37,700 bases of DNA, taken from Candidatus Methylomirabilota bacterium (GTDB lineage Bacteria > Methylomirabilota > Methylomirabilia > Methylomirabilales > Methylomirabilaceae). Positions 7,710 through 25,509 of this stretch are shown piece after piece; position 1 is the first letter of the stretch, and every line of letters starts with the position of its first letter. The DNA is taken from NCBI GenBank assembly GCA_016207095.1, contig JACQQF010000035.1, forward strand, positions 1-37,700. The letters are read 5' to 3'. A program made the position numbers and the translations under genes. Under the pieces are notes generated by a model. That model was not told where the DNA came from, made no database searches, and was given only the letters and a program-made list of their open reading frames with translations.

Positions 7710-8381
7710 ATGCTCCTCATCCGCCACGGAGAATCGATCTGGAATCAGGAGCGTCGGATCCAGGGGAATCTCGACCCCGGCTTGAGCGATCGAGGCAAGG
7801 ATCAGGCCGCGCTCCTCGCCGCGAGGCTGAAGGGCCGACCGTTCACTGCCCTCTACACCAGCCCGCTCAGGCGCGCCCTGGACACGGCCGCCATCCTCGG
7901 CAAGTCCACCGGCCTTGGTCCTCGGCCCATTGATGGCCTTCGGGAGATACGGCTGGGAGAATGGGAAGGAAAAACCGCCATCGAGATCAGGACCACGTCC
8001 GGCAACCTGTACGATCGGTGGCTCGATCGGCCGCTTGACGTCTCTTCTCCACCTGGGGGAGAGGAGATACGTGTCTTCCAGCAGCGAGCGGTGGAGGCCA
8101 TCGAGAGCCTCCGGAGATCTCACATCGATGGGGACCTCCTTGTGGTGACGCACGGCGGCGTGATCAAGGTCTACCTGTGCCATATCCTGGGTCTCGACTT
8201 GAATCGCCTGTTTCGGATCAAAACTGACAACACCGCCGTGACCGAGATCCTATTTAACGGTGACACGGCCCACCTCGCTCTTCTCAACGATACCTGTCAC
8301 TTAGATGGCCAAAGCGTCGCTATCCTGACCCACGATGACGTCTCTGGGGGGGATCAAGATGCGGCCCACGCCGCCTCCTAG
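7710..8381 (+). CDS. Histidine phosphatase family protein (phosphoglycerate mutase-like)
   Basis: A 223-residue member of the branch-1 histidine phosphatases. It has the phosphorylated-His motif LLIRHGES (His6), an ALYTSPLRRALDTA segment, REIRLGEWEG with the acid residue, and the second His in VVTHGGVI. Possible substrates include phosphoglycerate, alpha-ribazole phosphate and nucleotide phosphates; nothing nearby decides. The first residues are very close to the RHG motif, as is common. The last 25 or so residues are not conserved-looking, and the TAG stop (8379-8381) is part of the CTAG terminus of a miniature repeat element. Confidence 0.85.
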   Translation: MLLIRHGESIWNQERRIQGNLDPGLSDRGKDQAALLAARLKGRPFTALYTSPLRRALDTAAILGKSTGLGPRPIDGLREIRLGEWEGKTAIEIRTTSGNLYDRWLDRPLDVSSPPGGEEIRVFQQRAVEAIESLRRSHIDGDLLVVTHGGVIKVYLCHILGLDLNRLFRIKTDNTAVTEILFNGDTAHLALLNDTCHLDGQSVAILTHDDVSGGDQDAAHAAS

Positions 8382-8485
8382 TGCCGTTCCAACTATGTAC
8401 GCCTAAATGGTAAGGCCGGGGAAAGCGATAGTTCTTAGCACGACACCTGTTGACAGTTAGCCGCGACAAGTTGGAACGGCACTAG
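8378..8485. repeat. Miniature inverted-repeat element, family A (copy A1)
   Basis: A 108-bp element bounded by CTAG on both sides with 17-base perfect terminal inverted repeats (CTAGTGCCGTTCCAACT and its complement). The interior has no ORF. The same termini recur at 8735, 12873, 25297 and elsewhere. The left CTAG contains the stop codon of the phosphatase gene. Features match a non-autonomous MITE-like element that targets CTAG/TTAG; no transposase is present. Confidence 0.85.
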
Positions 8486-8734
8486 TGCCCATTCAACCAC
8501 CTCCCCTTAGCGATGTCGTTACGGCTCGATGCGCCCCTTGTCTGAGCTTCCCGGCAGGCGCCAACTCCGAACGGGGATCAGTGACACGCGCCCCTTGCAG
8601 CGACACGCGACAGCCCGCGGGACCCGCCTAGAATCAGTCGTCGTGTCATCTCGACCAAAGCAAGGCCCCGAGAACAAGAAAGGCGAGGAGTGCGCCTCGC
8701 CTTATGCATTCCGGTGGAATCGATCCGGTTGAGC
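8486..8734. other. Spacer between two repeat elements
   Basis: No supported gene; a 67-codon open frame here has no start signal. A hairpin with 9-base arms (AAGGCGAGG at 8680-8688 and its complement at 8695-8703) is present without a T-run. Confidence 0.45.
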
Positions 8735-8912
8735 TTAGTGCCGTTCCAACTATTTACGAAAAAATGGTGAGGTTCGGGACGGCGGCAGTTCTTAGCAGGA
8801 CACGTGTCAGAGATTGGTGCCGTTCCAACCTTTTGGGTAACAGAACATCTCTTGGCGATTAGCCGAGACGAGTTGGAACGGCATTAGCCGCAACGAGTTG
8901 GAACGGCACTAG
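8735..8912. repeat. Family A element with a second A-type element nested inside (A2)
   Basis: The outer copy starts TTAGTGCCGTTCCAAC at 8735 and ends GTTGGAACGGCACTAG at 8912. Its interior is split at the position where A1 has TTAG (8814-8887 is a shorter 74-bp element with the same inverted termini, bounded by TTGG and TTAG). Removing the inner copy restores an outer sequence that follows A1, including the GTTCTTAGCA segment. The right terminus supplies the stop codon of the minus-strand fmdB gene. Confidence 0.8.
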
Positions 8913-9199
8913 TCCGCCACGCTTTTCTTGGACTCCTTGGTCTCGGCCTTTGTTTCCGTTTTCTGGCTGCCATCGCCCGAGGCCGCTTTCTTGTCAGCCT
9001 CCAGCGCCCTCTTTCGCTCGGGATTCGCATAATCCGTCACATACCAGCCCGAGCCTTTAAAGAGCAGTCCTGGAGCAGAGAGAATTTTGTGGACCTTTCC
9101 CCTGCACAACACACACTTCTTGATCGGTCTGTCCGAGACCTTTTGGATCACCTCAAACTTGTGATCGCAGGCTTCGCACTGATATTCATAAATCGGCAC
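8909..9199 (-). CDS. FmdB family zinc-ribbon protein
   Basis: A 96-residue protein starting (GTG) with PIYEYQCEACDHKFE, the classical FmdB N-terminus. C8/C11 and C29/C32 form the zinc ribbon. The C-terminal third is a Lys/Glu/Thr-rich low-complexity tail. The GTG at 9199-9197 is preferred because AGGAGG lies 8 bases in front of it and the family begins at M-PIYEY. The role is a putative regulatory or accessory zinc protein, first noted near formamidase and amidase genes; no such partner is here. Its TAG stop is provided by the CTAG end of a repeat element. Confidence 0.87.
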   Translation of the reverse strand: MPIYEYQCEACDHKFEVIQKVSDRPIKKCVLCRGKVHKILSAPGLLFKGSGWYVTDYANPERKRALEADKKAASGDGSQKTETKAETKESKKSVAD

Positions 9200-9461
9200 G
9201 AATGCCACCTCCTTTGGTCTAGCATGACCCCGAGAGGATCGATGATAGTCTGATATCGCTCACACTAACTCGTCGAGGAGAACCGTCTCTCACTCCGACT
9301 TCCGAGATCAGGATACGTGACGGTTCCTATCATGTCAAGGTCAGCGGCCACCGGCAGGCCCAAACCAAGTGATCGGCCTCACAACGCGGCCCTGACCCAC
9401 ATGCGAAGGTTTGGCATTCAATTCGACCCCTTGAAATGTCCTCACATAGGACGGTTTTCTC
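9200..9461. other. Intergenic, no supported gene
   Basis: Upstream region of fmdB (minus) and the putative 44-codon ORF (plus). I see no gene or known RNA. Confidence 0.45.
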
Positions 9462-9491
9462 TTGACAACACTTTGCACTAACGGGTAGAAG
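9462..9491 (+). promoter_or_regulatory. Possible promoter
   Basis: A perfect TTGACA at 9462-9467 with TAGAAG 18 bases downstream. It could drive the small ORF at 9508 or, with a long leader, the DedA-type gene at 9883. Confidence 0.4.
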
Positions 9492-9507
9492 AGCGTGGAG
9501 CGTGAAC

Positions 9508-9642
9508 ATGTCGAATCCCCGTATGGAAACGCCTCAGACCATTCTTATGCGAAAAGAGCTACGACTGTCCAGACATCCTGAACTGCCTGTTATTGAAGCG
9601 GTCGAAGCGGGCCGGCGGTCAAGGGCTGACCTCTCCTCATGA
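9508..9642 (+). CDS. Possible 44-residue ORF, unknown
   Basis: ATG at 9508 follows GTGGAG by 7 bases and lies just downstream of a TTGACA promoter candidate. The product begins MSNPRMETPQTILMRKELRL and is basic, with no recognised motif. It may be a real small protein or leader peptide, or chance. Between 9643 and 9882 I see nothing else. Confidence 0.25.
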   Translation: MSNPRMETPQTILMRKELRLSRHPELPVIEAVEAGRRSRADLSS

Positions 9643-9882
9643 AGCCGCCTCGGCGACTCGTCCCCTCCACTTCTCTTGCGTGGGCGACCTCTTAGGCAGG
9701 CCCTTCATCTCCATTCTCGTCAGCATTCCAAGCGAGTCCAGACCGGTGGCAACCGCGATTGACAGCTACCCGACGGTGGAACAAGGTAAAGCGAGCAGGC
9801 GACAACACCGACCTTTACCTCCTTGTGCTCGGACTCCGCAACCTGTACCATCCAGTGTTGCGCATTGGGAGAACGATCGTCA

Positions 9883-10626
9883 ATGAAGAAGGGTCTCGTG
9901 ATCGCCACGGTCTTCATGCTCCTGGCCGGCATCTTGTTTGCCATTGTTGCCTTCAACGGCTGGTTCGCTCTGGACCGATACAGGGAGCTGCTCGAATTTT
10001 ACGCGAACCGGAAGGCGATCGCCCAGTATATTAAGGACGCCGGCCCCTACGGTCCGATCGTCTTCATCATGCTCCAGGCGTTGCAGGTAGTGGCGGCCCC
10101 GATCCCCGGCGAGGCGACCGGGATCCTCGGCGGATACCTCTTCGGGACCCTCCCGGGCCTCATCTATTCAACCATCGGCCTGACCCTCGGCTCCTGTTTG
10201 GGCTTCGGCCTGGGCCGTTGGCTGGGACTGCCGTTCGTCCGCCGCTTCGTGAGGCAGGAGACCTACCACAAATTCGATTTTCTGACCCAAGCCAAGGGGG
10301 AGTTGGTCATCTTCCTCCTCTTTCTCATCCCCGGTTTCCCGAAGGACATCCTGTGCTTCCTTCTAGGCGCCAGCCCTATTCCCTTCGGGACATTCTTCCT
10401 GGTAAGCACGGTGGGACGCATCCCCGGGACCTGGCTCCTCTCCATCCAGGGGACGCAGGTCCGCGGACACCAGTATGTCAGCCTCTTTATCCTGCTTTCG
10501 TTACTCGCGGTAGTACTACTTGTCCTGCACACCTACCGGGATCGGATCTTCGACTGGATGAAGCGCCATCATCATCGGAAGGAGCAAGAGGAAACAAGCG
10601 TGACGAAGGATCGGGAAGGTCGATGA
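9883..10626 (+). CDS. VTT/DedA (TVP38/TMEM64) family membrane protein
   Basis: A 247-residue integral membrane protein. A first hydrophobic segment spans residues 4-25. The SNARE-associated/VTT core follows, with [17 protein letters not shown], a [17 protein letters not shown] segment and the re-entrant [14 protein letters not shown] motif. The family includes lipid scramblases and DedA-type flippase-like proteins. The C-terminus is a cytoplasmic His/Lys/Glu-rich tail. The ATG at 9883 is chosen from the Shine-Dalgarno-like GGGAG upstream and the hydrophobic N-terminus; the frame is open further upstream without signals. A cation exchanger begins 43 bases downstream, probably in the same transcript. 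Confidence 0.85.
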
Positions 10627-10669
10627 CACCTCGCGGGGTCACAGGGCGGGAGCGAGCAGGGCCACGTCG

Positions 10670-11875
10670 ATGAAGGCCTGGGTGTGGTTGATCACCGCCA
10701 TCCTTTTGTCCCTCCAGTGGATTGGCATCCGGCTCTCCAGCGTTCACCTGTCCCCCCTGTGGGAGGTGGTGGGCGCCGGGTTAGCGATTTTTGGCGCCGC
10801 CTTCATCCTGTCCTGGGCGGCCGAGGTGGCACAGGTTGACATCCCGCAGGCACTCGCGCTGGCCTTCCTGGCGCTGATCGCGGTGCTTCCGGAGTATGCG
10901 GTGGACATCTACTTCGCCTGGTCCGCCGGCAAAGATCCGAACTATACCGCCTACGCGACCGCCAACATGACGGGTGCAAACCGCCTGCTGATCGGCATCG
11001 GATGGGCGGCGGTCGTTGCGACGTTTTGGCTCAAGACGAGACAACGCCGGGTCGTCCTGGATCGGGCCCACTCGATCGAGCTTCTTCACCTCGGGCTCGC
11101 CACTGTCTACAGCTTCGTGATCCCGCTGAAAGGGACCATTTCGGCCCTCGACTCCTTCATCCTCATCTCGATCTTCGTTTCATACATGATCTCCGCGTCG
11201 AAGGCCCAGGTCGTCCACCCCGAGCTGGAGGGAGGGCCGGGAGAACTGCTCATGCATCTGCGGCCGCTGGCGCGCCGCGTGTCCATCATCGGGATGTTCA
11301 TCTACGCCGCGATCAGCATTTATCTTGCGGCCGAGCCGTTCGCCGAGGGACTTCTGGCCACTGGTCGGACATTCAGGATCGAGGAGTTCTTGCTGGTCCA
11401 ATGGCTCGCACCATTGGCCTCGGAGTCTCCCGAGTTTATCGTGGCGATCGTTTTCGCCCTCAAGGGAAAGCCCGGCGCCAGCATGGGCACGCTCGTCTCG
11501 TCCAAGGTCAATCAATGGACCCTTCTTGTCGGAATGCTTCCCCTCGCTTACAGCCTCTCTGCCGGGCACCTTGGGGCCATGCACCTGGACGCCAGGCAGA
11601 CAGAGGAGATCTTCCTGACGGCGGCCCAATCGCTCTTCGCGATTGCCGTGCTGGCCAATCTCTCGTTCTCTCTGGCCGAGGCCGGCATGATCTTCGCCCT
11701 CTTTGTGACTCAGTTATTCTTTACCGACCCCGTATTCCGATATGCCTATGCCATCGCCTACATCATGCTGACTGTGCTGTGGCTCATCGTAAGCCCCTCG
11801 AGCCGGCAGGGCTTGGTCGCCATGGTCGCCAAGCGATGGCCCGGCAAACCTGTTGCCCACTCCCATCAGAAATGA
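10670..11875 (+). CDS. CaCA family sodium/calcium exchanger-like protein
   Basis: A 401-residue polytopic membrane protein with two inverted alpha repeats. The first is [14 protein letters not shown] (about 71-84) with [12 protein letters not shown]; the second is [16 protein letters not shown] (about 247-262) with [16 protein letters not shown]. Each carries the Pro-Glu pair that binds the cation in the Ca2+/cation antiporter superfamily. Around ten hydrophobic segments can be counted. It probably exports Ca2+ or another cation in exchange for Na+ or H+; ion choice is not decidable here. It is co-oriented with the upstream VTT protein. Confidence 0.82.
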
Positions 11876-11969
11876 AGCTGCGCGGTACCGCTAGCGCGCA
11901 GATCGATACAGGCAGGCTGTCTATTGCGGGACGACATGTAGGTCGGGCCTCCCGGTCCGATTAAAACTA

Positions 11970-11999
11970 TTGACAGTCCTGAGGTGGGGCGTTTACGCT
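11970..11999 (+). promoter_or_regulatory. Possible promoter upstream of the NYN gene
   Basis: TTGACA at 11970-11975; the best -10 match is weak (TACGCT at 11994). It sits in the 220-base gap before the NYN gene, which otherwise holds nothing I can name. Confidence 0.35.
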
Positions 12000-12095
12000 T
12001 GTGCCGAACCAAAGGCCTGTCCCGCGTTGCGTAAGCGTGCGTGACCTGTTGGGGTACCACTGTCAGCCTGTTAGCGCGGAAGCGAAAGGAGCTCG

Positions 12096-12851
12096 ATGAA
12101 CGAAGAGAAGCGACTCGCCCTCTTTATCGACTTCGAAAACATCGCCATTGGGATCAAGGAGGCCAAACACAAGCAGTTCGAGATCGGCCTCGTGCTCGAG
12201 CGACTGGTGGAGAAGGGAAAGATCATGGTGAAGCGAGCCTACGCGGACTGGGGGCGCTACGCCGAATACAAGCGGCTCCTCCACGAATCGGCCATCGAGT
12301 TGATCGACATCCCGCAGAAGCGTATCAGCGGCAAGAACAGCGCCGATATCCGGCTGGCGGTGGATGCGATGGACATGGCCTACTCCAAGGAACACCTCGA
12401 CACCTTTGTGATCGTATCGGGAGACAGCGATTTCTCGCCCCTGGTCTCGAAGTTGCGGGAGAACAACAAGGAGGTCATTGGTCTCGGGGTCAAGAATTCG
12501 GTCTCAGAACTGCTGGTGGATAATTGCGACGAGTTCATCTACTATGAAGACCTGATCCGCGCCCCCAAGAAGGCCCCCGTGATCTCCGGACTTCCCGAGA
12601 AGAAGGCGGAGGCGTTCGACCTCCTGAGCGATTCCATTCAGGCGCTTCTGCGCGAGAATAAAGAGGTGCTCTGGGGGTCTATGGTCAAGCAGACGATGAT
12701 CCGCAAGCGGCCCTCGTTTAACGAAGGCTACTACGGCTACAGCAGCTTCTCCAAGCTCCTCGAAGACGCCGCCAAGCACAATATCATCGAGCTAAAGCGG
12801 GACTCCAAGAGCGGCACGTATATCATCACCAGCTTCGCGGAGGCCGCCTAG
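12096..12851 (+). CDS. NYN-domain nuclease with C-terminal LOTUS/OST-HTH domain
   Basis: A 251-residue protein. Residues 5-150 form a LabA-type NYN (PIN-like) nuclease domain, with acidic metal ligands in FIDFENI (D12, E14) and VSGDSDFSPL (D110, D112). Residues 165-245 resemble an OST-HTH/LOTUS RNA-binding winged helix (LRENKEVLWGSMVKQ, then GYYGYSSFSKLLEDA). The combination implies an RNA-processing or RNA-degrading enzyme; its target is unknown. The TAG stop coincides with the CTAG terminus of a repeat element. Confidence 0.85.
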   Translation: MNEEKRLALFIDFENIAIGIKEAKHKQFEIGLVLERLVEKGKIMVKRAYADWGRYAEYKRLLHESAIELIDIPQKRISGKNSADIRLAVDAMDMAYSKEHLDTFVIVSGDSDFSPLVSKLRENNKEVIGLGVKNSVSELLVDNCDEFIYYEDLIRAPKKAPVISGLPEKKAEAFDLLSDSIQALLRENKEVLWGSMVKQTMIRKRPSFNEGYYGYSSFSKLLEDAAKHNIIELKRDSKSGTYIITSFAEAA

Positions 12852-13144
12852 TGCAGGTCCAATTAACTTCGCCTAGTGCCGTTCCAACCACTTGCGCGAA
12901 AAAGGGCGCGGCCAAAGAAGGCGCTGGTTCTTCGCCGGACACCTGGCGGCGATTAACCGCAACAAGTTGGAACGGCGCAAGCGGCGTTGCCGGCACCCAG
13001 GGCACTCCCTGCGACGTACCTGGAAACGTACGCCGGGTACCCGCGGAGTGGGTGTGGCCCCGGGGGCCGCGCCTTGCTATGCTGGCTTCTTTGCCCGGCA
13101 CGACCCGCAGGAACCCAAGTGGGAAGAAGCCGGAGGCCGCCTGA
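12848..13144. repeat. Family B miniature element (B1), split by an A element
   Basis: Begins CTAGTGCAGGTCCAATTAAC at 12848, is interrupted at its internal CTAG by a complete A element (12873-12981), then continues (GGGCACTCCCTGCGACG, the CCTTGCTATGCT block) to a degenerate end around 13144. The order matches B2 (22381-22573, opposite orientation) and B3 (22969-23143). It abuts the NYN stop on one side. On the other side its degenerate end carries the GGAGG that precedes the SDR start codon. Confidence 0.78.
12873..12981. repeat. Family A element (A3) inserted in B1
   Basis: A 109-bp element, CTAGTGCCGTTCCAAC at the left and GTTGGAACGGCGCAAG at the right. It lies exactly at the position where B2 and B3 have an uninterrupted CTAG or TTAG, giving CTAG on one side and CAAG on the other as the presumed target duplication. 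Confidence 0.82.
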
Positions 13145-13903
13145 ATGAACAGGCAGCCGATGAGGGTGAAAGGGCGGAAGGCGCTGGTCACCGGGAGTTC
13201 GCGTGGGTTGGGCCGTGCGATCGCGCTGGCGCTGGCGGACGAGGGAGCTGACGTCGCGGTCAACTATGTGACCAACAGGTCGCAAGCCGAAGATGTAGCC
13301 GAAGCCATCCGCGCCAAAGGGCGACAGACGGTGGTCTGCCAGGCCGACGTCAGCGAGTACGACCAGGTGGCCGCGATGAAGAAGGTGGTGGAGCGGTCCC
13401 TGGGAACGATCGACATCCTGGTGAACAACGCCGGTGTGATCAGCGATAAGACCTTCGTCAAGATGGACTTCGCCCAGTGGCAGCGAGTCCTGTCGGTAAA
13501 CCTTGACGGGACGTTTCACTGCTCCAAGCTCTTTGTCGAGGGGATGCTGGCCATGGGGTGGGGGCGCATTGTCAACATGAGCGCCTTCACCGGTCAGGCC
13601 GGTAACTTCGGCCAGGCCAACTACGCCGCCGCGGCGGCGGGGATCATGGCCTTCACCAAGAGCCTGGCTAAAGAGCTGGCCAGCAAGGGGATCACCGTGA
13701 ATGCTGTTGCCCCGGGGTTCGTCGAAACCAACATGGTCCGGACTATTCCCGAACGGGTGCTGAAGCGCCTCATCGATGAGATTCCGATGAAGCGGCTGGG
13801 TCGCCCGGAGGAGATCGCCCGAGCCGTCATCTTTCTTGTGTCATCCGATGGCGACTATATCACCGGCCAGGAAATCAGTATCAACGGTGGCCTCTTGGTG
13901 TGA
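13145..13903 (+). CDS. SDR family protein (FabG/PhaB-like) lacking catalytic Lys
   Basis: A 252-residue short-chain dehydrogenase fold. The NAD(P) motif TGSSRGLGRA lies at 16-25, NNAG at 94-97 and NVAPG-like NAVAPG at 186-191. The active site is abnormal. The tyrosine is present (Y160), but the Lys four residues later is Ala (YAAAAAG instead of YAAAKAG), and the serine position in IVNMSAFTG is Ala147 with a Ser one residue before. Classical FabG chemistry (ketoacyl reduction) needs Ser-Tyr-Lys, so this may be a pseudo-enzyme, a structural partner or a decaying copy. The start ATG is preceded by GGAGG from a repeat element. Confidence 0.85.
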   Translation: MNRQPMRVKGRKALVTGSSRGLGRAIALALADEGADVAVNYVTNRSQAEDVAEAIRAKGRQTVVCQADVSEYDQVAAMKKVVERSLGTIDILVNNAGVISDKTFVKMDFAQWQRVLSVNLDGTFHCSKLFVEGMLAMGWGRIVNMSAFTGQAGNFGQANYAAAAAGIMAFTKSLAKELASKGITVNAVAPGFVETNMVRTIPERVLKRLIDEIPMKRLGRPEEIARAVIFLVSSDGDYITGQEISINGGLLV

Positions 13904-13912
13904 TGCTCCACT

Positions 13913-14194
13913 ATGCCCTCCAATGTGCGTCACTTCGTGCGTCGAATGATCCGCCGCGAGGCGGTCGGCGAGATCACCGCTCTTTTTGGCACCACCTTGC
14001 TGCTCCTCTTAATGATGAGCCGGCCTGACTGGGACGAGCCCGCCTTTCAGATCTTCTGGGGAACGGCCGGCCTGGGTCTTGTTGCAGTCGGGTCGTATCT
14101 GATGCTCAGTCGGCGGCGTGCCGAGGGCCGGCATCGGGTGAGGGTCTCAGAGGAGGAACCCGGCAGGTCCGATTTCTCACCCAGGAGCGAGTAG
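13913..14194 (+). CDS. Small two-helix membrane protein, unknown
   Basis: A 93-residue product with two hydrophobic stretches (about 22-36 and 47-65), a basic N-terminus rich in Arg and a polar tail. It starts 9 bases after the SDR stop without a clear Shine-Dalgarno, so coupling is likely. I do not recognise a family. Confidence 0.5.
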   Translation: MPSNVRHFVRRMIRREAVGEITALFGTTLLLLLMMSRPDWDEPAFQIFWGTAGLGLVAVGSYLMLSRRRAEGRHRVRVSEEEPGRSDFSPRSE

Positions 14195-14209
14195 CCCTTA
14201 CGGTCCGCC

Positions 14210-14493
14210 ATGGTGGTCGGTGTGATCGACTGTATCGCCATCCTCAGTCACTGGCCGGAACCCGTCACCGATGTGTCTTGGGTCTCCACCTTCCTCATCG
14301 GCCCAGACCGCCCCATTCCGGCCGTGGGGGCCGTGGCAGTGAAGGACGGAAGGGTGCTGCTGGTCAAGCGGGGCGAGGAACCGGACCGAGGTATCTGGAC
14401 CCCGCCCGGCGGGGCCGCGTCCACCCCGGCGAGGAGCTGAAGACGGCGGTCAGCAGGGAACTCCGTGAGGCGTGCGGACCGGAATGGACCTGA
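14210..14493 (+). pseudogene. Frameshifted, truncated Nudix hydrolase
   Basis: The first frame reads IPAVGAVAVKDGRVLLVKRG and WTPPGG, the start of a Nudix domain. It then slips at about 14408-14420 in a G/C-rich run. The continuation VHPGEELKTAVSRELREACG (Nudix box GEEL...REL.E..G) is in another frame and stops at 14493. The gene therefore has a frameshift (two extra bases or one missing) and has lost its C-terminal part. Its end overlaps the thiS start by 10 bases. A sequencing error could explain the shift but not the truncation. Confidence 0.7.
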
Positions 14494-14690
14494 TCGTCAA
14501 TGGGAAGAAACGTGAAGTACCAGATGGGGCCACCCTCACGGTGCTCCTGAATGAGTTGAACATCAACCCTCTCAGGGTCGCCGTCCAGCTCAATCTGGAG
14601 ATCGTTAAGCGAGAGCGGTACGACAAGGCGGTGCTGAAGGCAGGTGACAGACTGGAGATCATTACCTTCATGGCCGGCGGCGCTGAGTGA
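14484..14690 (+). CDS. thiS: Sulfur carrier protein ThiS with two extra C-terminal residues
   Basis: A 68-residue ubiquitin-fold sulfur carrier for thiazole synthesis ([23 protein letters not shown]). The C-terminus reads FMAGG-AE. ThiS normally ends exactly in Gly-Gly, which is adenylated by ThiF and thiocarboxylated; the additional Ala-Glu would block this unless removed. Start at 14484; a Met four codons upstream is inside the Nudix remnant. thiG follows 29 bases after the stop. Confidence 0.88.
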
Positions 14691-14719
14691 GAGACGGGAT
14701 GGTGCGGGAGGGGAACGCG

Positions 14720-15496: not shown

Positions 15497-15509
15497 GGCG
15501 AACTCTGAA

Positions 15510-15533
15510 CCCGCACCCCGCACCCCGCACCCG
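15510..15533. repeat. Minisatellite, three units of CCGCACC
   Basis: Tandem CCGCACC-type repeat between thiG and thiE. It lies where the ribosome-binding site or start of thiE would be expected. A related Cys/Thr-poor CACCTCG array occurs inside the histidine kinase at 37573-37600. Confidence 0.7.
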
Positions 15534-17839: not shown

Positions 17840-17890
17840 GATTCCTCCCTACCTATGGAAGCCGACCGCAACCGCTGCGGCCTCGTGTGG

Positions 17891-17917
17891 AAGGGGGCTC
17901 CGCACTGGAGCCCCCTT
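17891..17917. terminator. Hairpin, possible terminator of the small secreted-protein gene
   Basis: Perfect 10-base arms (AAGGGGGCTC at 17891-17900 and its complement at 17908-17917) with a 7-base loop, about 30 bases past the minus-strand stop at 17949. No T-run, so termination is only presumed. Confidence 0.4.
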
Positions 17918-17948
17918 CACCAACCGCCCTAATGAATAACGACGGCTC

Positions 17949-18206: not shown

Positions 18207-18224
18207 CCAATCACCTCCTCTCTG

Positions 18225-19565
18225 TCATGATGGTATCCCCACCTTGCGGCGGCGCCACTCGTTCAGCCGCCGTCCTATCTCAACTTCAAGCCCGCGGTCG
18301 GTGGGGTGGTAGTAGATTCGGCCCTTCAATCCCTCCGGCAGGTAGTCCTGTTCGGCAAATGCCTCCGGGAGATCATGCGGATATTGGTACTCCGTGCCGT
18401 AGCCCATCTCTTTCATCAAAGGGGTGGGCGCATTTCGCAGATGTAGCGGCACCCCTTCAAGCGGGGCATCCTCCACGTCACGCCGCGCCTCGCCGAACGC
18501 CATGTAGACGGCGTTCGATTTGGGCGCGGTCGCCAGATAGGCGGCGGCCTGGGCAAGCGCCAATTCGCCCTCGGGAGAACCGAGGAAATGAAAGGCGTCC
18601 TTGGCGGCCAGCGCCACTTGCAGCGCCTGCGGATCAGCGTTGCCGACATCTTCAGAGGCGAAGCGGACCAGGCGCCGCGCGAGATACAACGGGTCCTCCC
18701 CGGAGGCCAGCATCCTCGCGAGCCAATAGAGGGAGGCATCAGGGTCGCTGCCCCGCAGACTTTTGTGCAGGGCCGAGATCAGATTGAAGTGCTCATCCCC
18801 TGCCTTGTCGTACAGGAGCGCTCGGCGCTGTCCGGCCTCTTGAGCCATATTCAGCGTGAGCCTGCGGCTGCCCTCGGGCTCCCGGCCAGCCATCTGGGCC
18901 GCCAGCTCCAACGTGTTCAATGCCGTGCGGGCGTCGCCGGAACTGAACCTGGCGATGAAACAAAGCGCCTCTTCGTCTGCTTCGATGGCCAGGCGACCGA
19001 GGCCCCGCTCGTGATCGTCGAGCGCCCGCCGCAGGATCAGCACCAGCCCCTCCTCAGCCAGAGGCTGAAGCGTCAGGACCTTCGCCCGGGAGAGCAGGGG
19101 GGCGATGACCTCAAACGACGGGTTCTCGGTCGTGGCGCCGATCAACACGATCGTGCCGCGCTCCACATGAGGCAGGAAGGCGTCCTGCTGCGCCTTGTTG
19201 AAACGGTGGATCTCATCGATGAAGAGAAGGGTCCGCGTCCCATTGGCCCGCTCCCGTTCGGCGCGGGCGATCACTTCCCTGATCTCCTTGATCCCCGAGC
19301 TGACCGCCGAGAACGGGACGAAGGTCGCCCGGATCCTTTCCGCCAGCAGGAACGCGAGGGTTGTCTTCCCGGAGCCCGGGGGTCCCCAGAGGATCAGCGA
19401 TGGCAGGTCGCCTGTCTCCAGGGCGCCGCGGAGGATCTTTCCCTCCCCCAGCAGATGTCCCTGCCCCACGAACTCCTTCAGGCTCCTCGGACGCATCCGG
19501 TCGGCTAGAGGGCCGGGAAGCCTCTCACCCGGGGACGGGGATCTGTCGAACAGGTCCGATGTCAT
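18225..19565 (-). CDS. rarA: Replication-associated recombination protein A (RarA/MgsA)
   Basis: A 446-residue AAA+ ATPase related to the clamp-loader. The N-terminus LADRMRPRSLKEFVGQGHLLG, Walker A GPPGSGKTT (61-69), Walker B LLFIDEIHRF (113-122), sensor region GATTENPSFEV, and the RarA-specific C-terminal domain (ALHKSLRGSDPDASLYWLAR and the tail PEGLKGRIYYHPTDRG) are all present. It acts at stalled forks and binds SSB and single-stranded DNA ends. Convergent or adjacent genes are unrelated in function. Confidence 0.94.
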   Translation of the reverse strand: MTSDLFDRSPSPGERLPGPLADRMRPRSLKEFVGQGHLLGEGKILRGALETGDLPSLILWGPPGSGKTTLAFLLAERIRATFVPFSAVSSGIKEIREVIARAERERANGTRTLLFIDEIHRFNKAQQDAFLPHVERGTIVLIGATTENPSFEVIAPLLSRAKVLTLQPLAEEGLVLILRRALDDHERGLGRLAIEADEEALCFIARFSSGDARTALNTLELAAQMAGREPEGSRRLTLNMAQEAGQRRALLYDKAGDEHFNLISALHKSLRGSDPDASLYWLARMLASGEDPLYLARRLVRFASEDVGNADPQALQVALAAKDAFHFLGSPEGELALAQAAAYLATAPKSNAVYMAFGEARRDVEDAPLEGVPLHLRNAPTPLMKEMGYGTEYQYPHDLPEAFAEQDYLPEGLKGRIYYHPTDRGLEVEIGRRLNEWRRRKVGIPS

Positions 19566-19631
19566 CTTGTTCCTGGCAACATCAATTGAGGGGAGCCTAA
19601 CCCGTCATCCTGGACTCGCCGTCTTGCCGCT

Positions 19632-20339
19632 TCAGACCGTCTGGGGCAGCTCGCCGAGGACCCGCCGGGCAGCGGCGGCCGGATCGGCTGCCGTGATGAT
19701 CGGCCGGCCGATCACCAGGTAATCGGCGCCCGCCGCAGCGGCCTCCCTGGGGGTCATGACTCGAAGCTGGTCGTCGGCCGGAGCCCATTCCGGGCGAACC
19801 CCCGGCGTCACGATCAGCATCGACGGGCCAAGGGCGCCTCTGAGCGGAGCGATCTCGTGAGTGGAGGCGACGATCCCGTCCATCCCTGCCTCGCGCGCCA
19901 GCGAGGCAAGGCGAATGACGTGCGCCTGAAGGCCCAGCCCGCTGCCGATCGCCTCCTCGTACCCGTGCGGGTCCAGGCTGGTGAGGATCGTCACTGCCAG
20001 GAGACGCATCGCCGAGCCGCTTTGGGTGACGGCCTCCTTCGCCGCCTGCAGCATTGACCGACCGCCGGACGCGTGCAGCGTACACATCACCGCCCCCATC
20101 TTGGCCGCCTCCCGAACGGCCCCGGCGACCGTATTCGGGATGTCGTGAAGCTTCAGGTCCAGGAAGACCTGGCCACCACGTTTTTGCACCACTTCCACCG
20201 CCCGCGGGCCCTCAGCCGTAAAGAGCTGGACCCCCACCTTGAACAGCGTGACCGCGGGGCGAAGCTGGTCCACGAGCTTTCCGGCCGTGACAAGGTCCTT
20301 GACATCCAGGGCCACGATCAATCCGGGTGTCTTTCGCAT
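19632..20339 (-). CDS. pyrF: Orotidine 5'-phosphate decarboxylase
   Basis: A 235-residue TIM barrel catalysing OMP to UMP, the last step of de novo pyrimidine synthesis. Catalytic residues lie in VALDV (D11), FKVG (K34) and DLKLHDIPNT (D61, K63, D66). The phosphate-binding region VTPGVRPEWAPADDQLR with TPREAA and GADYLVIGRPI closes the site. Length is standard. Confidence 0.95.
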   Translation of the reverse strand: MRKTPGLIVALDVKDLVTAGKLVDQLRPAVTLFKVGVQLFTAEGPRAVEVVQKRGGQVFLDLKLHDIPNTVAGAVREAAKMGAVMCTLHASGGRSMLQAAKEAVTQSGSAMRLLAVTILTSLDPHGYEEAIGSGLGLQAHVIRLASLAREAGMDGIVASTHEIAPLRGALGPSMLIVTPGVRPEWAPADDQLRVMTPREAAAAGADYLVIGRPIITAADPAAAARRVLGELPQTV

Positions 20340-20354
20340 TGTATGACTCCTCCC

Positions 20355-21107
20355 CTAAACAGGCAGGCACATCATATCCTCAGCCAAGATCAACTCGCCA
20401 TCAAAGACTTTCCTGCAAGGCGTGACGATGTCATACTCGTCGCAGATCGGATAGAAGTGCGTCAAGACAAGTCGCCGACAGCCTGAGAGCGCCCCGATCT
20501 GGCCGGCCTGAGTCGGGGTCAAGTGATTTTTCATGGGTCGCTCATCCGGGGCAGAGCATTCCAGGACGAGGAGATCTGCGCCCTTCGCCGCGTCGATGAT
20601 GGCGTCACAGTAGGTGGTGTCGCCCGAGAAGACCAGAGTCTTGCCAGCGCCCGACTCGACTCGGTAGCAGAGGCTATGTCGAAGATGCACGACCTCTTTG
20701 GGAATCACCCGGAAGCCCTCACCTTCGGCGACCTTTTCAAGGATCTCTTCGAGAACCAGCTCGTAACTCTTCGCGGCGATCCAGTCGCCGTACAGCTCGA
20801 CCAAGCCATTGTGATAGGCCCGGAACCCCTTCGGTCCAGTGATGTACAACGGCTTCGTCCGTTGCCATGCCGGATTCCGAAGGGCGAATAGGAGTGGAAC
20901 CAGATCCCCCGTATGATCCGGATGAAGATGGGTGTAGAAGACCCGGTCCAGATCGAGGACCGTGACCCCAGCTTCAAGGAGTCTAGGCAGCGTCCCTGCG
21001 CCGCCGTCGAACAAGAGCGACTGGCCGGCGACCTCGACGAGGAGGCCGGGCGATCCCCGCCGGAGGCTTGGGATCGCGGTCCCGGATCCAAGGATCGTCA
21101 ACTGCAT
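20355..21107 (-). CDS. RNase Z-like MBL-fold metallo-hydrolase
   Basis: About 250 residues. The N-terminus MQLTILGSGTAIP and metal motif THLHPDHTGD (H60, H62, D64, H65) are those of the RNase Z/ElaC branch. Further ligands are in VVHLRHS, FSGDTTYCD, LVLECSAPDE, NHLTPTQAG and LVLTHFYP. Many members next to pyrimidine genes are annotated ribonuclease Z, but the substrate could also be a phosphodiester or an arylsulfate. The Met at 21107 fits the family start; in-frame starts exist upstream to 21143, and no clear Shine-Dalgarno separates them. The gene begins 15 bases upstream of pyrF's end on the same strand, so the two are probably co-transcribed. Confidence 0.82.
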   Translation of the reverse strand: MQLTILGSGTAIPSLRRGSPGLLVEVAGQSLLFDGGAGTLPRLLEAGVTVLDLDRVFYTHLHPDHTGDLVPLLFALRNPAWQRTKPLYITGPKGFRAYHNGLVELYGDWIAAKSYELVLEEILEKVAEGEGFRVIPKEVVHLRHSLCYRVESGAGKTLVFSGDTTYCDAIIDAAKGADLLVLECSAPDERPMKNHLTPTQAGQIGALSGCRRLVLTHFYPICDEYDIVTPCRKVFDGELILAEDMMCLPV

Positions 21108-21187
21108 GGGCGAGAGAATAGCATTAAACCCGGGCATTGACAAGGGAGGCAGGGTGGGGTAAGGATTGGCCTAACGGAGCGTGAAGG

Positions 21188-22384
21188 ATGCAAAGTCGGC
21201 AGTCCACTTGGGTGAACATTTCGCGGGCCTATTGGGGTATGGCCCTCTGGCTGACACTGCTGCTCTGGCCGGGCCTATGTCCCGCCGGCGTCTGGCGGGA
21301 CCCGAAGATCGAGGAGCTGGTCGTCGCGGGGACCGATCGCCTCCTCAACCTCGATTACCCTGAGGCCGAAAAGGTGTTCTCCCGTCTGAGCGACCTCGAT
21401 TCGACCGGACTGCTCGCCCAGTTGTACGGCGCCTTCGTCAAACTTGCGCGGGTGCAGGATCGGGAGGCGACGCCGGAGGAGTTGGACGCCTTCCTGGCGA
21501 CGCTCACGACGATCACAGCGAAGGCCGAGGAACAGCTCAGGCGCACCCACGAGGACCCCGATCTCCTGCTCTTTCTCGGAATGGCCTGGGGCTCAAAGGC
21601 GATGATCGACGGCGTTCGGGGCAACTATCTCTCGACCTACGAGGGGATAAAGCGCACCAGGCGGTATTTCGAGGCCTGCCTCCAGCACCAACCGACCAGG
21701 TACGATGCCTACTATGGTCTGGGCCTGTACGATTACACCCTCTCTCGACTCTCCTGGTTCTATCGCCCTTTCGTGCACCTGCTGCTGCCGCCAGGCGATC
21801 GAGAGCGCGGCCTTCGAGCGCTCGCCCTGGCCGGCGAGCGAGGGACCGCGACCAGGATGCTGGCCAAGTTCGCCCTCCTGCAGACCTACACCGGCCTCGA
21901 GAAAGATTATGGCCGGGCCCTGCCGCTGGCGGAGGAGCTGCTCCGGCGATTTCCGGGAAACCCTGAACTCTATTTCCAGGCGGCGCTGGTCTATTCCGAG
22001 CTGGGGCGGTTCACCGACGCCCTGGAGGTCGGCCGTCGGATCCGCGCCAACCTCGAGCAGGAGCGCCACCACTTCAAGCGAGAGATGCTGTCGCGTTACT
22101 TCCAGCTCATGGGGAAGATGTATATGGACCACGGCGACTACCTCACGGCCTTGAGTTTCTTCAGGAAAACGATCGCACAGCCGACGACCCGCTACGCGTG
22201 GGTGACGGCGTGGGCCTGGACCCGGACGGGCATGATCCACGACCTGTTGGGGGAGCGGGGAGAGGCGACCAAGAGCTATCAAATGGCCTTGGCGGTCAAG
22301 ACCGATGGGATGGCGAAGGATGTCGCCAGGCAATACCTGGACGAGCCCTACCGAAAGGAGGCGGCGCGCCAGACCGCCCCTTAG
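21188..22384 (+). CDS. Exported TPR-repeat protein, unknown function
   Basis: A 398-residue protein with an N-terminal hydrophobic segment (about 16-33, ending L-C-P-A-G, so a lipoprotein or signal-peptide cleavage is possible). Helical tetratricopeptide-like repeats follow: LDYPEAEKVFSRL, ACLQHQPTRYDAYYGLGLYDY, GRALPLAEELLRRFPGNPELYF, LGRFTDALEVGRRI and HGDYLTALSFFRKTI. It probably serves as a periplasmic scaffold. The TAG stop (22382-22384) is the first part of a family B repeat element (TTAG). Confidence 0.75.
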   Translation: MQSRQSTWVNISRAYWGMALWLTLLLWPGLCPAGVWRDPKIEELVVAGTDRLLNLDYPEAEKVFSRLSDLDSTGLLAQLYGAFVKLARVQDREATPEELDAFLATLTTITAKAEEQLRRTHEDPDLLLFLGMAWGSKAMIDGVRGNYLSTYEGIKRTRRYFEACLQHQPTRYDAYYGLGLYDYTLSRLSWFYRPFVHLLLPPGDRERGLRALALAGERGTATRMLAKFALLQTYTGLEKDYGRALPLAEELLRRFPGNPELYFQAALVYSELGRFTDALEVGRRIRANLEQERHHFKREMLSRYFQLMGKMYMDHGDYLTALSFFRKTIAQPTTRYAWVTAWAWTRTGMIHDLLGERGEATKSYQMALAVKTDGMAKDVARQYLDEPYRKEAARQTAP

Positions 22385-22573
22385 TGGTCCTCCAACTATT
22401 TCGCCCTAAGTTGGTGCGCACCATGTGCCGGGCCAAGAAACGAGCATAGCAAGGCGCGGCACCTGGGGCCGCACCCACTGCGCGGGTACCCGACGTACAT
22501 TCTCAGGTACGTCGCAGGGAGTGCCCCGGGGGCCAGCAACGAAGCTAGGCGATGTTAATTGGACTGGCACTAG
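22381..22573 (-). repeat. Family B miniature element (B2)
   Basis: A 193-bp uninterrupted element bounded by TTAG (22381) and CTAG (22573). Termini are variants of CTAGTGCC-GTCCAA. The interior contains the complement of the CCTTGCTATGCTCGTTTCTT block, two GTAC-rich palindromes and the GGCACTCCCTGCGACGTACC block. No ORF. Orientation is opposite to B1. It carries the stop codon of the TPR gene. Confidence 0.8.
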
Positions 22574-22587
22574 AGCCGCGTTTTCTC

Positions 22588-22615
22588 TTGACACGTTCTT
22601 CAGGCGGGCCATAAT
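22588..22615 (+). promoter_or_regulatory. Promoter upstream of the small periplasmic protein gene
   Basis: TTGACA at 22588-22593, a 16-base spacer and CATAAT at 22610-22615. It begins 15 bases after the end of element B2. Confidence 0.65.
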
Positions 22616-22675
22616 GAAGAGTGAAGATCGAAGAGCCAGATCAGATCTGGAACGATCCGGCATGGAGGGAGAAGA

Positions 22676-22972
22676 GTGGTGATAACCGCGAAGGCGACAC
22701 GAGTCCTGGCAGCCGTGATACTGTCGATGACGCTCCTGGTCCTTCCGGCCTTCGCCTGCGAATTGGCCGGCCCCAACGTCCACATAGGAGAGATCAAGGC
22801 GATCGATCCCGCTCAGCGAAGCCTCACAATCCTGGACCGGCAGATGAAGAAGCCTTTCACCTTCCTGGCTGCTCCGGAGCAGCTTAAGGGACTCTCACCG
22901 GGGCAACTGGTTTCGGTGAAGTACTCCGAGATGAAGGGTCAGTTAAGAGCCGAAGAGATCAAGCCGCTCTAG
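22676..22972 (+). CDS. Small exported beta-rich protein, OB-fold/CusF-like
   Basis: A 98-residue product with two successive GTG codons as possible starts after GGGAGAAGA. A signal peptide ends near LPAFA-C. The mature part (GEIKAIDPAQRSLTILD, then FTFLAAPEQLKGLSPGQLV and VSVKYSEMKGQL) has the strand pattern of small periplasmic OB-like barrels (DUF5666 or CusF-like), but the metal-binding Met/Trp of CusF is not evident. Function unknown. Its stop lies in the CTAG terminus of element B3. Confidence 0.6.
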   Translation: MVITAKATRVLAAVILSMTLLVLPAFACELAGPNVHIGEIKAIDPAQRSLTILDRQMKKPFTFLAAPEQLKGLSPGQLVSVKYSEMKGQLRAEEIKPL

Positions 22973-23143
22973 TGCCGTTCCAACTAACTTCGCTTAGCTT
23001 CGTTGCTGTCCCCGGCGCCCTCCCTGCGACGTACCTGACGCCGTACGCCTCGGTCGGCTCCAGGGACAGCGCCTTGCTATGCTCGTTTCTTGGCCCGGCA
23101 TATTGCGCTCCAACTTGGGGGGAGATAGTTGGAGCAGCACTAG
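22969..23143 (+). repeat. Family B miniature element (B3)
   Basis: A 175-bp element with CTAGTGCCGTTCCAACTAAC at the left and GTTGGAGCAGCACTAG at the right. Inside is TTAG at the site where B1 carries an A element, then the CCCTGCGACGTACCTGACG block and the CCTTGCTATGCTCGTTTCTT block. Same orientation as B1. Confidence 0.82.
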
Positions 23144-23207
23144 CTGGCGTACCACGCGTCTCGTCCTGGTTGCAGGTGGCTCCGCAAGAAAAGAAGGCTC
23201 GGAGCGA

Positions 23208-23600
23208 TTACTTCCCTCCTTTGGAGAGGGTGGTGAGCTGCTCCTGAGTCAGGAGCTGCCGCATCGCTTTGTGAAACTTGATCTCTGTCAGTAGCATCTC
23301 TCTGTCGGTCTTCGCCAGTTGGTCGGCTGCTTTGTCGATCTCCTTGTCCGATGTCTTCTTGTCAGAAAGCAGGTCCACCAACCGCTTACGGATCTCCACG
23401 ATCTTCTGCTGACCGGCGGTCAGCGCCGTCTTTCGCTCGCTGGTCAGCGTATCAAGCTTGCTTCTCTGATCGTTGGAAAGCGCCAATTGTTTGAAGGGGT
23501 CGGCCTCCTTCGCCGGTTCCTTCTGGGCTGACGCGATCGTCCCGCCCGCCGCCATCATGGCCACCACCAGTCCAACCAGCAATCCTCTCCATGCGCGCAT
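23208..23600 (-). CDS. Spy/CpxP-like periplasmic protein (LTxxQ motif)
   Basis: A 130-residue protein with a signal peptide ending I-A-S-A and a helical mature part. Two LTxxQ-type motifs are visible (LSNDQRSKL and LTQEQLTTL). Members (Spy, CpxP, CnrX-like) are periplasmic chaperones or stress and metal sensors. GAGGAGA precedes the ATG. It stands alone between element B3 and glgA. Confidence 0.7.
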   Translation of the reverse strand: MRAWRGLLVGLVVAMMAAGGTIASAQKEPAKEADPFKQLALSNDQRSKLDTLTSERKTALTAGQQKIVEIRKRLVDLLSDKKTSDKEIDKAADQLAKTDREMLLTEIKFHKAMRQLLTQEQLTTLSKGGK

Positions 23601-23781
23601 CCAGATCTCCTCTCTTCAGAATGACCGACGCAGCAAACGGCTCACGAGACAGCACTCATCAACCCATTGTACTCGGGAACGGGGAAGGGCGAAAGCGAAA
23701 ATTGGTCCGGACGAAAGGCCTTACCTCCCGTGGCCCATCCCGGCAGAGGCCGTCGGGCGCAATTGCGACGCCCGGACCGAT

Positions 23782-25245
23782 TCACGACCGCCCTCGCGTC
23801 GCCAAAGAGTGCCGATAGAGCTGCTCGTACTCTCGGGCCGAGCGATCCCAGGTGAAGTTTCCAGCCATGGCATTCGCAACCACCCGACCCCAACGGGCCT
23901 TCTGCGAGAACAGCGCCAACGCCTGCATGATCGACTGCAGAAGGGCGGCTGCGGTCGCCTCGTCGAACTTGAAGCCATTGCCCCGCCCCGTCGCAGGATC
24001 GAAGGTAACGATGGTGTCGTCCAGCCCGCCGGTGGCGCGGACGACAGGAATCGTCCCGTAGGCCAGACTGTACATCTGGTTCAGGCCGCACGGCTCATAT
24101 CGCGACGGCATCAAGAAGAGGTCGGCGCCGGCTTCGATCTGATGTGAGAGAGGAATGTCAAACCCGATCGTGACGCCGAGCTTGGAGGGGTGTTGCGTGG
24201 CAGCCTGAAGGAACGCCGCTTCGAGCGCCTTCTCGCCGCTTCCCAGCAGGACGAGCTGAAGGTTGAGGCTCATCACGTCCACCATGATATCTCGAAGCAG
24301 ATCGAGTCCTTTCTGTCCGGCCAGCCGTGAGACCACGCCGAGAACCGGCACCTCGGCCCTCTCCGGCAGCCGGAATCGTCGCTGGAGGTCTTTCTTGCAC
24401 ACAGCCTTGCCGGAAAGATCGGCGGCAGTATAGCGGGCGGCGATGTGCCGATCGATCGCCGGGTTCCATTCCTCGGGGTCAATCCCGTTTAAGATCCCGA
24501 ATAGATCCCCGCTCCGCTGCCTGAGCACGCCGTCCAGACCATGACCCAGCTCCGGCGTCCGTATCTCCCGACTGTAGCGAGGGCTAACGGTGGTGAGAAG
24601 GTCGGCGAAGAGCAGCCCGCCCTTCAAGAGATTGACCTGGCCGTAGAACTCGATGCCGGCTGGTGTGAACAACTCCCGGTGAAGGCCCAGCCTCGGGAGG
24701 ATCTCCGGCCCGAAAAGTCCCTGATAGCCAAGATTATGTATGGTGAACACCGTGGCGATGCCCTCAAGGAATGGATCGCCTCGAAGCAGTGTTTTCAGAT
24801 ACACAGGGATCAGGGCGGTTTGCCAGTCGTGAACATGCACCACATCGGGCTGGAACCCGAGGGCGCGGCACGCTTCAAGCGTTGCCCGGCAGAACAAGGC
24901 ATATCGCTCCGCATTGTCAGGGTAATCGTCCCCGGAAGGGGCCTGGTACAGGCCGTCGCGGTCGAACGAGCGGTCGTGGCGAACGAAGTAAACCGGCGCC
25001 CCGCTTGAGAGGCGTCCTTCCAGCACGTCCACTTTTTGCGAGCCCACAGCGGCGGGGACCTCTAGCCCTCTCGCCACCTCGCCCAGCCGGTGTCGCTTGA
25101 CGTCCACGGCCCGGTAGAGCGGCATAATCAGCCGAATGTCGTGCACGAGCCGGCTGAGCGCTTGTGGCAGGGCGCCGGCCACGTCGCCGAGCCCGCCGGT
25201 CCTGGCGAACGGCGCGGCCTCGGACGCAGCGAAGAGGATCTTCAT
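23782..25245 (-). CDS. glgA: Glycogen synthase (ADP-glucose type)
   Basis: A 487-residue GT5 glycosyltransferase from the ATG at 25245 (MKILFAASEAAPFARTGGLG). It extends alpha-1,4-glucan from ADP-glucose. Motifs: HVHDWQTALIPVYL, FTIHNLGYQG, a GILNGIDPEEWNPA segment, SRLAGQKGLDLL and the C-terminal PSRYEPCGLNQMYSLAYGT. In the N-terminal substrate loop the usual Lys (KTGGL) is Arg (RTGGL), a conservative change. The frame is open upstream into a repeat element, which is not part of the protein. No other glg gene is in view. Confidence 0.93.
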   Translation of the reverse strand: MKILFAASEAAPFARTGGLGDVAGALPQALSRLVHDIRLIMPLYRAVDVKRHRLGEVARGLEVPAAVGSQKVDVLEGRLSSGAPVYFVRHDRSFDRDGLYQAPSGDDYPDNAERYALFCRATLEACRALGFQPDVVHVHDWQTALIPVYLKTLLRGDPFLEGIATVFTIHNLGYQGLFGPEILPRLGLHRELFTPAGIEFYGQVNLLKGGLLFADLLTTVSPRYSREIRTPELGHGLDGVLRQRSGDLFGILNGIDPEEWNPAIDRHIAARYTAADLSGKAVCKKDLQRRFRLPERAEVPVLGVVSRLAGQKGLDLLRDIMVDVMSLNLQLVLLGSGEKALEAAFLQAATQHPSKLGVTIGFDIPLSHQIEAGADLFLMPSRYEPCGLNQMYSLAYGTIPVVRATGGLDDTIVTFDPATGRGNGFKFDEATAAALLQSIMQALALFSQKARWGRVVANAMAGNFTWDRSAREYEQLYRHSLATRGRS

Positions 25246-25274
25246 CTCAGTGTGTACGCGATCACTTATCCGTG

Positions 25275-25509
25275 CAATTGGGGGCCAGCAACGCGGCTTG
25301 TGCCGTTCCAACTTGTTGCGGTTAATCGCCGCCAGGTGTCCTGCGAAGAACCAGCGCCTTCTTTGGCATCGCCCTTTTTCGCGTAAGTGGTTGGAACGGC
25401 ACTAGGCGAAGCTAATTGGACCGGCACTAATCTCTGATACGTGTCCTGCTAAGAACTGCCGCCTTCCCGAATCCCACCATTTTGGCGTAAATAGTTGGAA
25501 CGGCACGAG
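25275..25509 (-). repeat. Composite of nested elements: A broken by B broken by A
   Basis: Read on the minus strand from 25509: the left part of an A element (to 25427) runs up to its internal TTAG. There a B element begins (25430-25406, AGTGCCGGTCCAATTAG). B is interrupted at its internal CTAG by a complete A element (25405-25297, 109 bp). B then resumes (CCGCGTTGCTGGCCCCC, to about 25275) and breaks off. The remainder of B and of the outer A are missing. The cluster lies between the fhs stop (25514) and the glgA start. Confidence 0.78.

Follow-up and report, generated by a model that had tools for sequence, protein, structure and literature searches.

The window analyzed here, a stretch of 37,700 nucleotides from a Methylomirabilota genome, contains two families of short CTAG-bounded elements, A and B, and this report concerns their structure, their mobility and the enzyme that may move them. 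The terminal sequence TGCCGTTCCAAC was found at 13 sites in the window with no more than one mismatch, compared with 0 or 1 in each of 20 simulated sequences. An initial annotation of the window had described nested elements bounded by CTAG; these are real, with terminal inverted repeats (TIRs) at the positions it gave, and they are flanked by target site duplications (TSDs) as listed in Table 1. Near-identical termini had been attributed to both families, which is true of family A, but the ends of family B (167-201 bp) are looser: the TIR of the element at 22385 reads TGGTCCTCCAAC, with 4 mismatches, and the copy beginning at 12848 has no recognizable right TIR. The copies in the window carry no ORF of note, as had been stated. 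Short, TIR-bounded, with TSDs and without a complete transposase, they have the features of miniature inverted-repeat transposable elements (MITEs).

Several of these elements are inserted into one another. The segment 8735-8912, previously described as a copy of family A, does belong to that family, but it is not a simple copy, being one A element (8739-8908) that holds a mini-element of 66 bp (8818-8883). The second element that had been noticed inside A at 8814 is this mini-element, and its removal along with one 4-bp repeat restores a 100-bp family A element that can be aligned with an intact copy. Likewise, 25275-25509 contains both A and part of B, as had been proposed, but in three nested levels: A within a left-truncated B (followed by CTAA), within a left-truncated A. 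Family A had also been placed inside family B at two sites. Nesting was seen at both, but the two regions (12849-12999 and 25279-25429) are an inverted pair with 93% identity over 151 bp, and the same junction is present in G011, a genome of the window's genus (locus L033). Because of this similarity and shared junction, a single nesting event that was later copied appears more likely than two separate insertions.

Table 1. Positions of the elements in the window and their flanking tetranucleotides.
Element	Position	Strand	Flanks and remarks
Family A element, 100 bp	8382..8481	+	TSDs CTAG 8378-8381 and CTAG 8482-8485
Family A element, interrupted by mini-element	8739..8908	+	TSDs TTAG 8735-8738 and CTAG 8909-8912
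66-bp mini-element inside family A 8739..8908	8818..8883	+	TSDs TTGG 8814-8817 and TTAG 8884-8887
Family B element with nested A	12852..13144	+	Left TSD CTAG 12848-12851; right border uncertain
Family A element, 101 bp, nested in family B	12877..12977	+	TSDs CTAG and CAAG
Family B element, 185 bp	22385..22569	-	TSDs TTAG 22381-22384 (stop codon of ORF 21188-22384) and CTAG
Family B element, 167 bp	22973..23139	+	TSDs CTAG 22969-22972 (stop codon of ORF 22676-22972) and CTAG 23140-23143; empty orthologous site in G011
Family A element, 101 bp, nested in truncated family B	25301..25401	-	TSDs CTTG and CTAG
Truncated family B, host of A 25301-25401	25275..25426	-	Followed by CTAA 25427-25430; left border approximate
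Remnant of outer family A, target of the B insertion	25431..25505	-	Followed by CGAG

A search of the whole genome, as the initial annotation had proposed, revealed many further copies. In this 2.9-Mb draft of 103 contigs (94.9% complete), TAGTGCCGTTCCAAC was present at 131 forward and 126 reverse sites (257 altogether, ≤1 mismatch), while a control pattern gave 1 and 0, and at 29 places two exact ends lay 105-135 bp apart, a few of these being nested composites. The element set was drawn from this genome (the first 100 of the 257 listed sites), its relatives, one viral contig and loci from GTDB. Among 169 simple elements, 105 span 99-101 bp between the duplications (64 of them exactly 100 bp), and the remaining lengths cluster at 66, 70-71, 82, 124-137 and 301-318 bp. 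The 64 elements of exactly 100 bp, which form 26 core clusters, showed an information content of 1.5-2 bits at each of positions 1-13, 1.07-1.68 bits at positions 20, 22 and 24, and at most 0.20 bits at positions 28-50, and mirror positions in their core pair no more than random sequence would. The elements thus combine a bipartite TIR with a fixed length and an unconstrained core. The two ends differ slightly: an AT-type end is paired with an end of another type in 69 of the 105 elements of 99-101 bp, and none of these combines two AT ends. RNA folding, which had been suggested at the outset, gave z scores of -3.2 to -4.4 in four elements, mainly from the paired TIRs, with inner pairing that varies.

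To define the target, the flanks of 168 simple elements were compared. CTAG was present on both sides in 108 of them, a frequency that is biased upwards because element sets were collected with patterns containing TAG or YTAG. The other 60 elements included 16 with identical tetranucleotides (TTAG 8, CTAA 4, CCAG 2, CTGG 2), not all of them independent, as several are nested in the same family A site; shuffling of these 60 pairs of flanks yielded a mean of 1.4 and a maximum of 6. Identity of the flanks peaked at a length of 4 (16/60), with 0 or 1 identical pairs at lengths 1-3 and 5-7. The YTAG-like target proposed initially is thus borne out, with CTAG and TTAG dominating and CTAA, CCAG and CTGG also duplicated. 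For the duplication itself, either TA or YTAG had been suggested; it is 4 bp long and of the CTAG/TTAG type, and the identity at length 4, which includes CCAG and CTGG, is not that of a TA duplication. The predicted empty allelic site was found in G011, where the orthologue of 22969-23143 lacks the element and reads AAGCCGCT-GTAA-CTGG, compared with AAGCCGCT-CTAG-167 bp-CTAG-CTGG in the window; the near flanks are 90-92% identical, and the tetranucleotide of the empty site, GTAA, differs from the CTAG of the window. This empty site and the nesting directly show insertion, and the elements are mobile.

Constant length, conserved ends and a variable core or interior are also features of REPINs, which are associated with RAYT (Y1 tyrosine) transposases, as described in PMC3116915. 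That the elements studied here are REPIN-like and moved by a RAYT is nevertheless scarcely credible. Their duplications are direct, with no inverted tetranucleotides among the 60 pairs above, their core is not self-complementary, whereas REPIN spacers pair according to the same source, and their full-length forms code for a nuclease, an enzyme of a different class, as described below.

Five outer insertion ends in the window fall on stop codons. The TAG stops of ORFs 7710-8381 and 12096-12851 are contained in the left TSDs of the elements at 8382 and 12852, respectively, those of ORFs 21188-22384 and 22676-22972 coincide with TSDs of family B, and the stop codon of ORF 8909-9208, on the reverse strand, is overlapped by the right TSD of the family A element 8739-8908. 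At 35 of 84 ends in this genome, the reading frame terminated by the duplicated TAG stays open over 100 codons or more (vs 7 and 6 for the other two frames); elsewhere, the figures are 95 of 185 ends vs 36 and 21. This excess partly follows from the rarity of CTAG inside genes. Since the duplication restores the stop, insertions at gene ends do little harm. CTAG sites at gene ends that lack an element are present in the window at 6675 and 32816.

In the first set, each of the six elements measuring 301-318 bp between their TIRs was found to hold an ORF for a GIY-YIG nuclease, four as such and two in a decayed form. A profile search for this nuclease in 53 genomes chosen for the presence of the TIR (7 genomes and 46 reached through loci) added further ones, bringing the total to 18 full-length elements (301-319 bp) from 12 genomes and 6 phyla; the ORF is uninterrupted in 12 of the 18 and has stops or frameshifts in 6. 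As annotated, the coding elements come from Gemmatimonadetes, Acidobacteria, Deltaproteobacteria, Nitrospirae and Methylomirabilota, with a decayed form in Omnitrophota. The sole ORF of the element is predicted to encode a single-domain GIY-YIG nuclease of ~93 residues. All four proteins tested matched the Pfam GIY-YIG family (PF01541; E 1.3e-6 to 4e-15), and the AlphaFold model (pLDDT 89) has UPF0213 proteins, Slx1 and I-TevI as its nearest solved folds. In the coding elements, each TIR has an outer part, TGCCGTTCCAACT, and a set of inner contacts, G-C-A, located roughly one helical turn deeper. The tail of the nuclease is encoded by the TIR, and in 10 of the 12 uninterrupted ORFs the stop codon is the TAG within the duplicated CTAG. 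Comparison of lineages showed roughly twice as many differences at third as at second codon positions. G039 has at least five near-identical full copies (L250 and L274-L277) and more at contig ends, and G011 has one uninterrupted coding copy (L249). In 95 genomes of the phylum that were not selected for the TIR, the nuclease was detected at E≤1e-25 in two, G011 and G039, both of which are TIR-positive.

Deleted forms of the coding element were also observed. L292 (154 bp) corresponds to L248 minus an internal segment, and L289 (145 bp) to a relative of L286 that has undergone a deletion. Both have kept the two ends of the ORF, while the 82-bp elements of G039 have both ends in common with the full-length copies of that genome. 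As in other MITEs, the ends are shared with a full-length mobile element, which here codes for a GIY-YIG nuclease.

Furthermore, 395 genomes of the phylum of G105, also not selected for the TIR, yielded 14 matches to the nuclease in nine genomes. Three are in the window's TIR family (two in G105 and a decayed one in G135), and four (L349, L350, L357 and L359) belong to a second TIR family (CCCCGTTAGA or CCCCGTGAGA), three of them in one genome and one in another. The coding elements of the second family measure 269-317 bp between CCCC ends. Identical 4-bp flanks (TTTA, TAAA, TTAA, TTCA, TTGA) were found in 11 of 20 pairs and inverted ones in 1, compared with 1-3 identical pairs at lengths 1-3, none at lengths 5-7, and a mean of 3.5 and a maximum of 9 in 5000 shuffles at 4 bp. 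The second-family pattern was present in four of nine genomes searched, with short pairs of 29-130 bp, and 29 of the 49 listed sites are in G445.

Other small GIY-YIG genes are associated with tRNA genes. In the window, 33098-33469 contains such a gene (33141-33416, minus strand), flanked on both sides by the same 33 bp of the tRNA-Asp 3' end. Among 14 lesser GIY-YIG loci, five lie between repeats of 18-59 bp that overlap a called tRNA gene, i.e., L256 (Arg), L257 (Pro), L258 (Ser), L264 (the window gene 33141-33416) and L272 (Met), and the genes of L255 and L262 lie between tRNA-like repeats adjoining a called tRNA. Such genes appear to use tRNA genes as insertion sites and to reconstitute them. 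Conspicuous inverted repeats around the 14 lesser matches were observed only at L271 (1451-1937), where a GIY-YIG gene lies between inverted copies of TGTCATTCCGAGCGCAGCGAGGAATCT, with a further direct copy. The L271 repeat is present in 6 of 11 genomes searched. As a candidate for a third TIR family (GTCATTCCGAGCGNAGCGAGGAATCT) it was rejected, because only L328 and L332, which are the same place, hold a GIY-YIG gene among 30 loci with the motif. In a tree of the proteins, the tRNA-type and other proteins split from the TIR-bearing side at 95/96, L351, the ends of which are cut by the contig, fell on the TIR-bearing side, and the TIR1 proteins formed one weakly supported group (44/88); the row tRNA_L256 is a wrong fragment and was disregarded.

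Altogether, we consider it probable that the repeats of the window represent a nuclease-only transposable element in non-autonomous form, and that the GIY-YIG enzyme of this element mobilizes the short copies in trans. The association of the ORF with the TIRs suggests that the GIY-YIG protein is probably the mobilizing enzyme, and we infer from it both the cut-and-join chemistry and the action in trans. According to this model, the nuclease would bind both TIRs and would cut the element ends and, with a 4-nt stagger, CTAG-like targets; the element would be joined to the opened target, and gap filling would generate the 4-bp duplication. At CTAG, the duplication would supply the TAG stop of the nuclease ORF as well as restore that of the upstream gene, so that many insertions at gene ends would be harmless. 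Internal deletions would give rise to short elements that settle at ~100 bp and are moved in trans, and the 100-bp elements of the window's genome would have been derived from coding elements in this way.

Several observations weigh against this model. No intact GIY-YIG element with the window's TIR was found in the draft genome from which the window comes, and the nuclease was missing at E≤1e-25 from this and four other TIR-positive genomes; only two of the seven genomes with strict TIR pairs have a GIY-YIG element. Presumably, the window's genome has lost its intact nuclease copy or the draft assembly lacks one. The 100-bp elements of this genome share with the coding elements the TIR region only and not the core. 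Of the 14 nuclease matches described above, 7 lie in neither TIR family (one of them cut by a contig end), and the uninterrupted ORFs of L249 (3' flank CAAG) and L251 (CGAG) read on for some codons. The G039 copies depart from their consensus at 18 places, of which 16 alter or truncate the protein, one is synonymous and one falls on the last base of the TIR, a bias that is perhaps due to decay. Finally, GIY-YIG enzymes hydrolyze DNA, and we know of none that joins it, which makes the joining step the weakest part of the model.

In a related explanation, the role of the GIY-YIG nuclease is limited to opening the CTAG target, in the manner of a homing enzyme, and host repair copies or ligates the element into it, so that the nuclease is not a transposase in the strict sense. 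The hydrolytic nature of GIY-YIG enzymes agrees with it, as do the related small GIY-YIG genes that lie between duplicated pieces of tRNA genes, where a homing gene would be expected. However, borders defined by TIRs and exact 4-bp TSDs that are found also at non-CTAG targets (16/60) fit a defined end-joining complex better, and we regard the homing-type explanation as possible but doubtful. It differs from transposition by the nuclease in the joining step only.

We also examined whether a conventional transposase could account for the elements. The search covered the models DDE_3, DDE_Tnp_1, rve and IS481, with IS701, IS1182, IS1380 and Y1 outside it. No match to DDE_3 (IS630), DDE_Tnp_1 (IS4/IS5) or rve was obtained in the draft genome of the window. 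The initial annotation had favored an IS630/Tc1-like or IS5-group transposase acting in trans, a proposal consistent with the YTAG-like targets and the short TIR elements. It is now very improbable: the 4-bp duplications, which include CCAG and CTGG, speak against the TA duplication of IS630/Tc1-mariner elements, this genome has no DDE_3 or DDE_Tnp_1 match, 303 loci contained no IS-sized TIR pair with CTAG-like flanks, and the longer TIR elements encode the GIY-YIG nuclease instead. Similarly, the full-length insertion sequence (IS) with the same TIR that had been anticipated was not found as an IS630, IS5 or IS481 element in the searches made.

A DDE transposase of another kind (IS481-, IS1182-, IS701- or IS5-like) might act in trans, with the GIY-YIG protein as a passenger or as a helper that cuts empty target sites. 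Some DDE families regularly have TG...CA ends and produce palindromic 4-bp TSDs, and IS481, with its TG...CA ends, inserts at CTAG-type targets (NCTAGN in Bordetella). The IS481 model gave five matches in the window's genome, one of them long and open, and matches in 32 of 41 genomes. However, none of the 30 IS481-type loci examined, which are part of all matches, carries the TIR pair, and among consecutive ends in the 303 loci only one pair lay 320-4000 bp apart, its right flank not CTAG-like. Many of these loci span only 1.5 kb of flank, so longer elements could be missed, and this too counts against mobilization by the nuclease. Partnerless TIRs in the GTDB loci had no transposase-like ORF by eye, without comparison to Pfam. 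Taken together with the recurrence of the nuclease in two TIR families, these results make a DDE transposase an unlikely source of the mobility.

The elements are widely distributed. Strict paired copies were found in 7 of 99 genomes (the window's own and its relatives), and a scan of GTDB with one genome per species detected a TIR end in at least 109 stretches, 87 of which hold a paired element; because only stretches that combine YTAG with the TIR could be detected, the scan gives a biased picture of taxa and TSDs, and chance may account for some of the single ends. The taxa of the paired loci, as annotated, include Methylomirabilota, Acidobacteria, Gemmatimonadetes, Nitrospirae, Beta-, Gamma- and Deltaproteobacteria, Tectomicrobia, Omnitrophota and Armatimonadetes. 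One TIR is shared in many phyla by elements mostly of 99-101 bp with unrelated cores. Family B is common in the window's genus: a BLAST query made up of one B element and its flanks matched the window's genome 32 times, G011 34 times and G002 20 times, counting matches to the flanks. A 101-bp copy was found in an IMG/VR viral contig (L049, 13194-13294), which is a possible vehicle between hosts. In 15 other viral contigs with an end no partner end was found, the strict full-length pattern gave no element, and one family A element (8378-8485) had only a 20-base and a 36-base match in plasmid and phage records, neither of them a real one.

The window also contains a direct repeat of 137 nt (28398-28534 and 32887-33023, 91% identical and 4.5 kb apart), which flanks a long ORF (28590-32819).

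The elements resemble the bacterial MITEs Chunjie and QMITE1/2 (PMC10969869) in being short and TIR-bounded, with TSDs, no complete gene, many copies and an origin by internal deletion. They differ from them in their full-length partner, which encodes a GIY-YIG nuclease instead of a DDE transposase, and in the recurrence of a single TIR and a single length in different phyla, combined with unrelated cores. The best sequence and structure matches of the nuclease are UPF0213 and other small single-domain GIY-YIG proteins (PDB 1zg2, 1ywl), which have the same fold and size; the nuclease described here, unlike these, is encoded in TIR-bounded multicopy elements. The element further shares with GIY-YIG homing genes of the I-TevI type a selfish nuclease gene, the I-TevI catalytic domain being among the fold matches, but it has no intron and no separate DNA-binding domain was seen, and it has TIRs, 4-bp TSDs and many dispersed sites vs one homing site. 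We know of no role in mobility for UPF0213 proteins. A search of the literature, with most subscription papers and preprints outside it, found no description of a TIR-bounded GIY-YIG element in bacteria, and papers containing the 12-base end sequence were unrelated by title. We would give an even chance to the broader proposal that these elements, at ~0.3 kb possibly the smallest autonomous ones, constitute a new class of transposable elements with a single-domain GIY-YIG nuclease as the transposase, that this nuclease recognizes element-specific TIRs and makes 4-bp duplications, that the class comprises at least two TIR families, and that related nucleases use tRNA genes as sites instead.

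If these proposals are correct, a further class of enzyme would carry out DNA transposition, in an element small enough to escape gene callers and IS databases. A protein of ~93 residues and ends of ~24 bp would provide a minimal test system for transposition, and the constant length of 100 bp with a free core is a directly testable constraint. The finding would also hint at what small GIY-YIG proteins without an assigned role may be used for and would provide an enzyme for many orphan short repeats of soil and groundwater bacteria.

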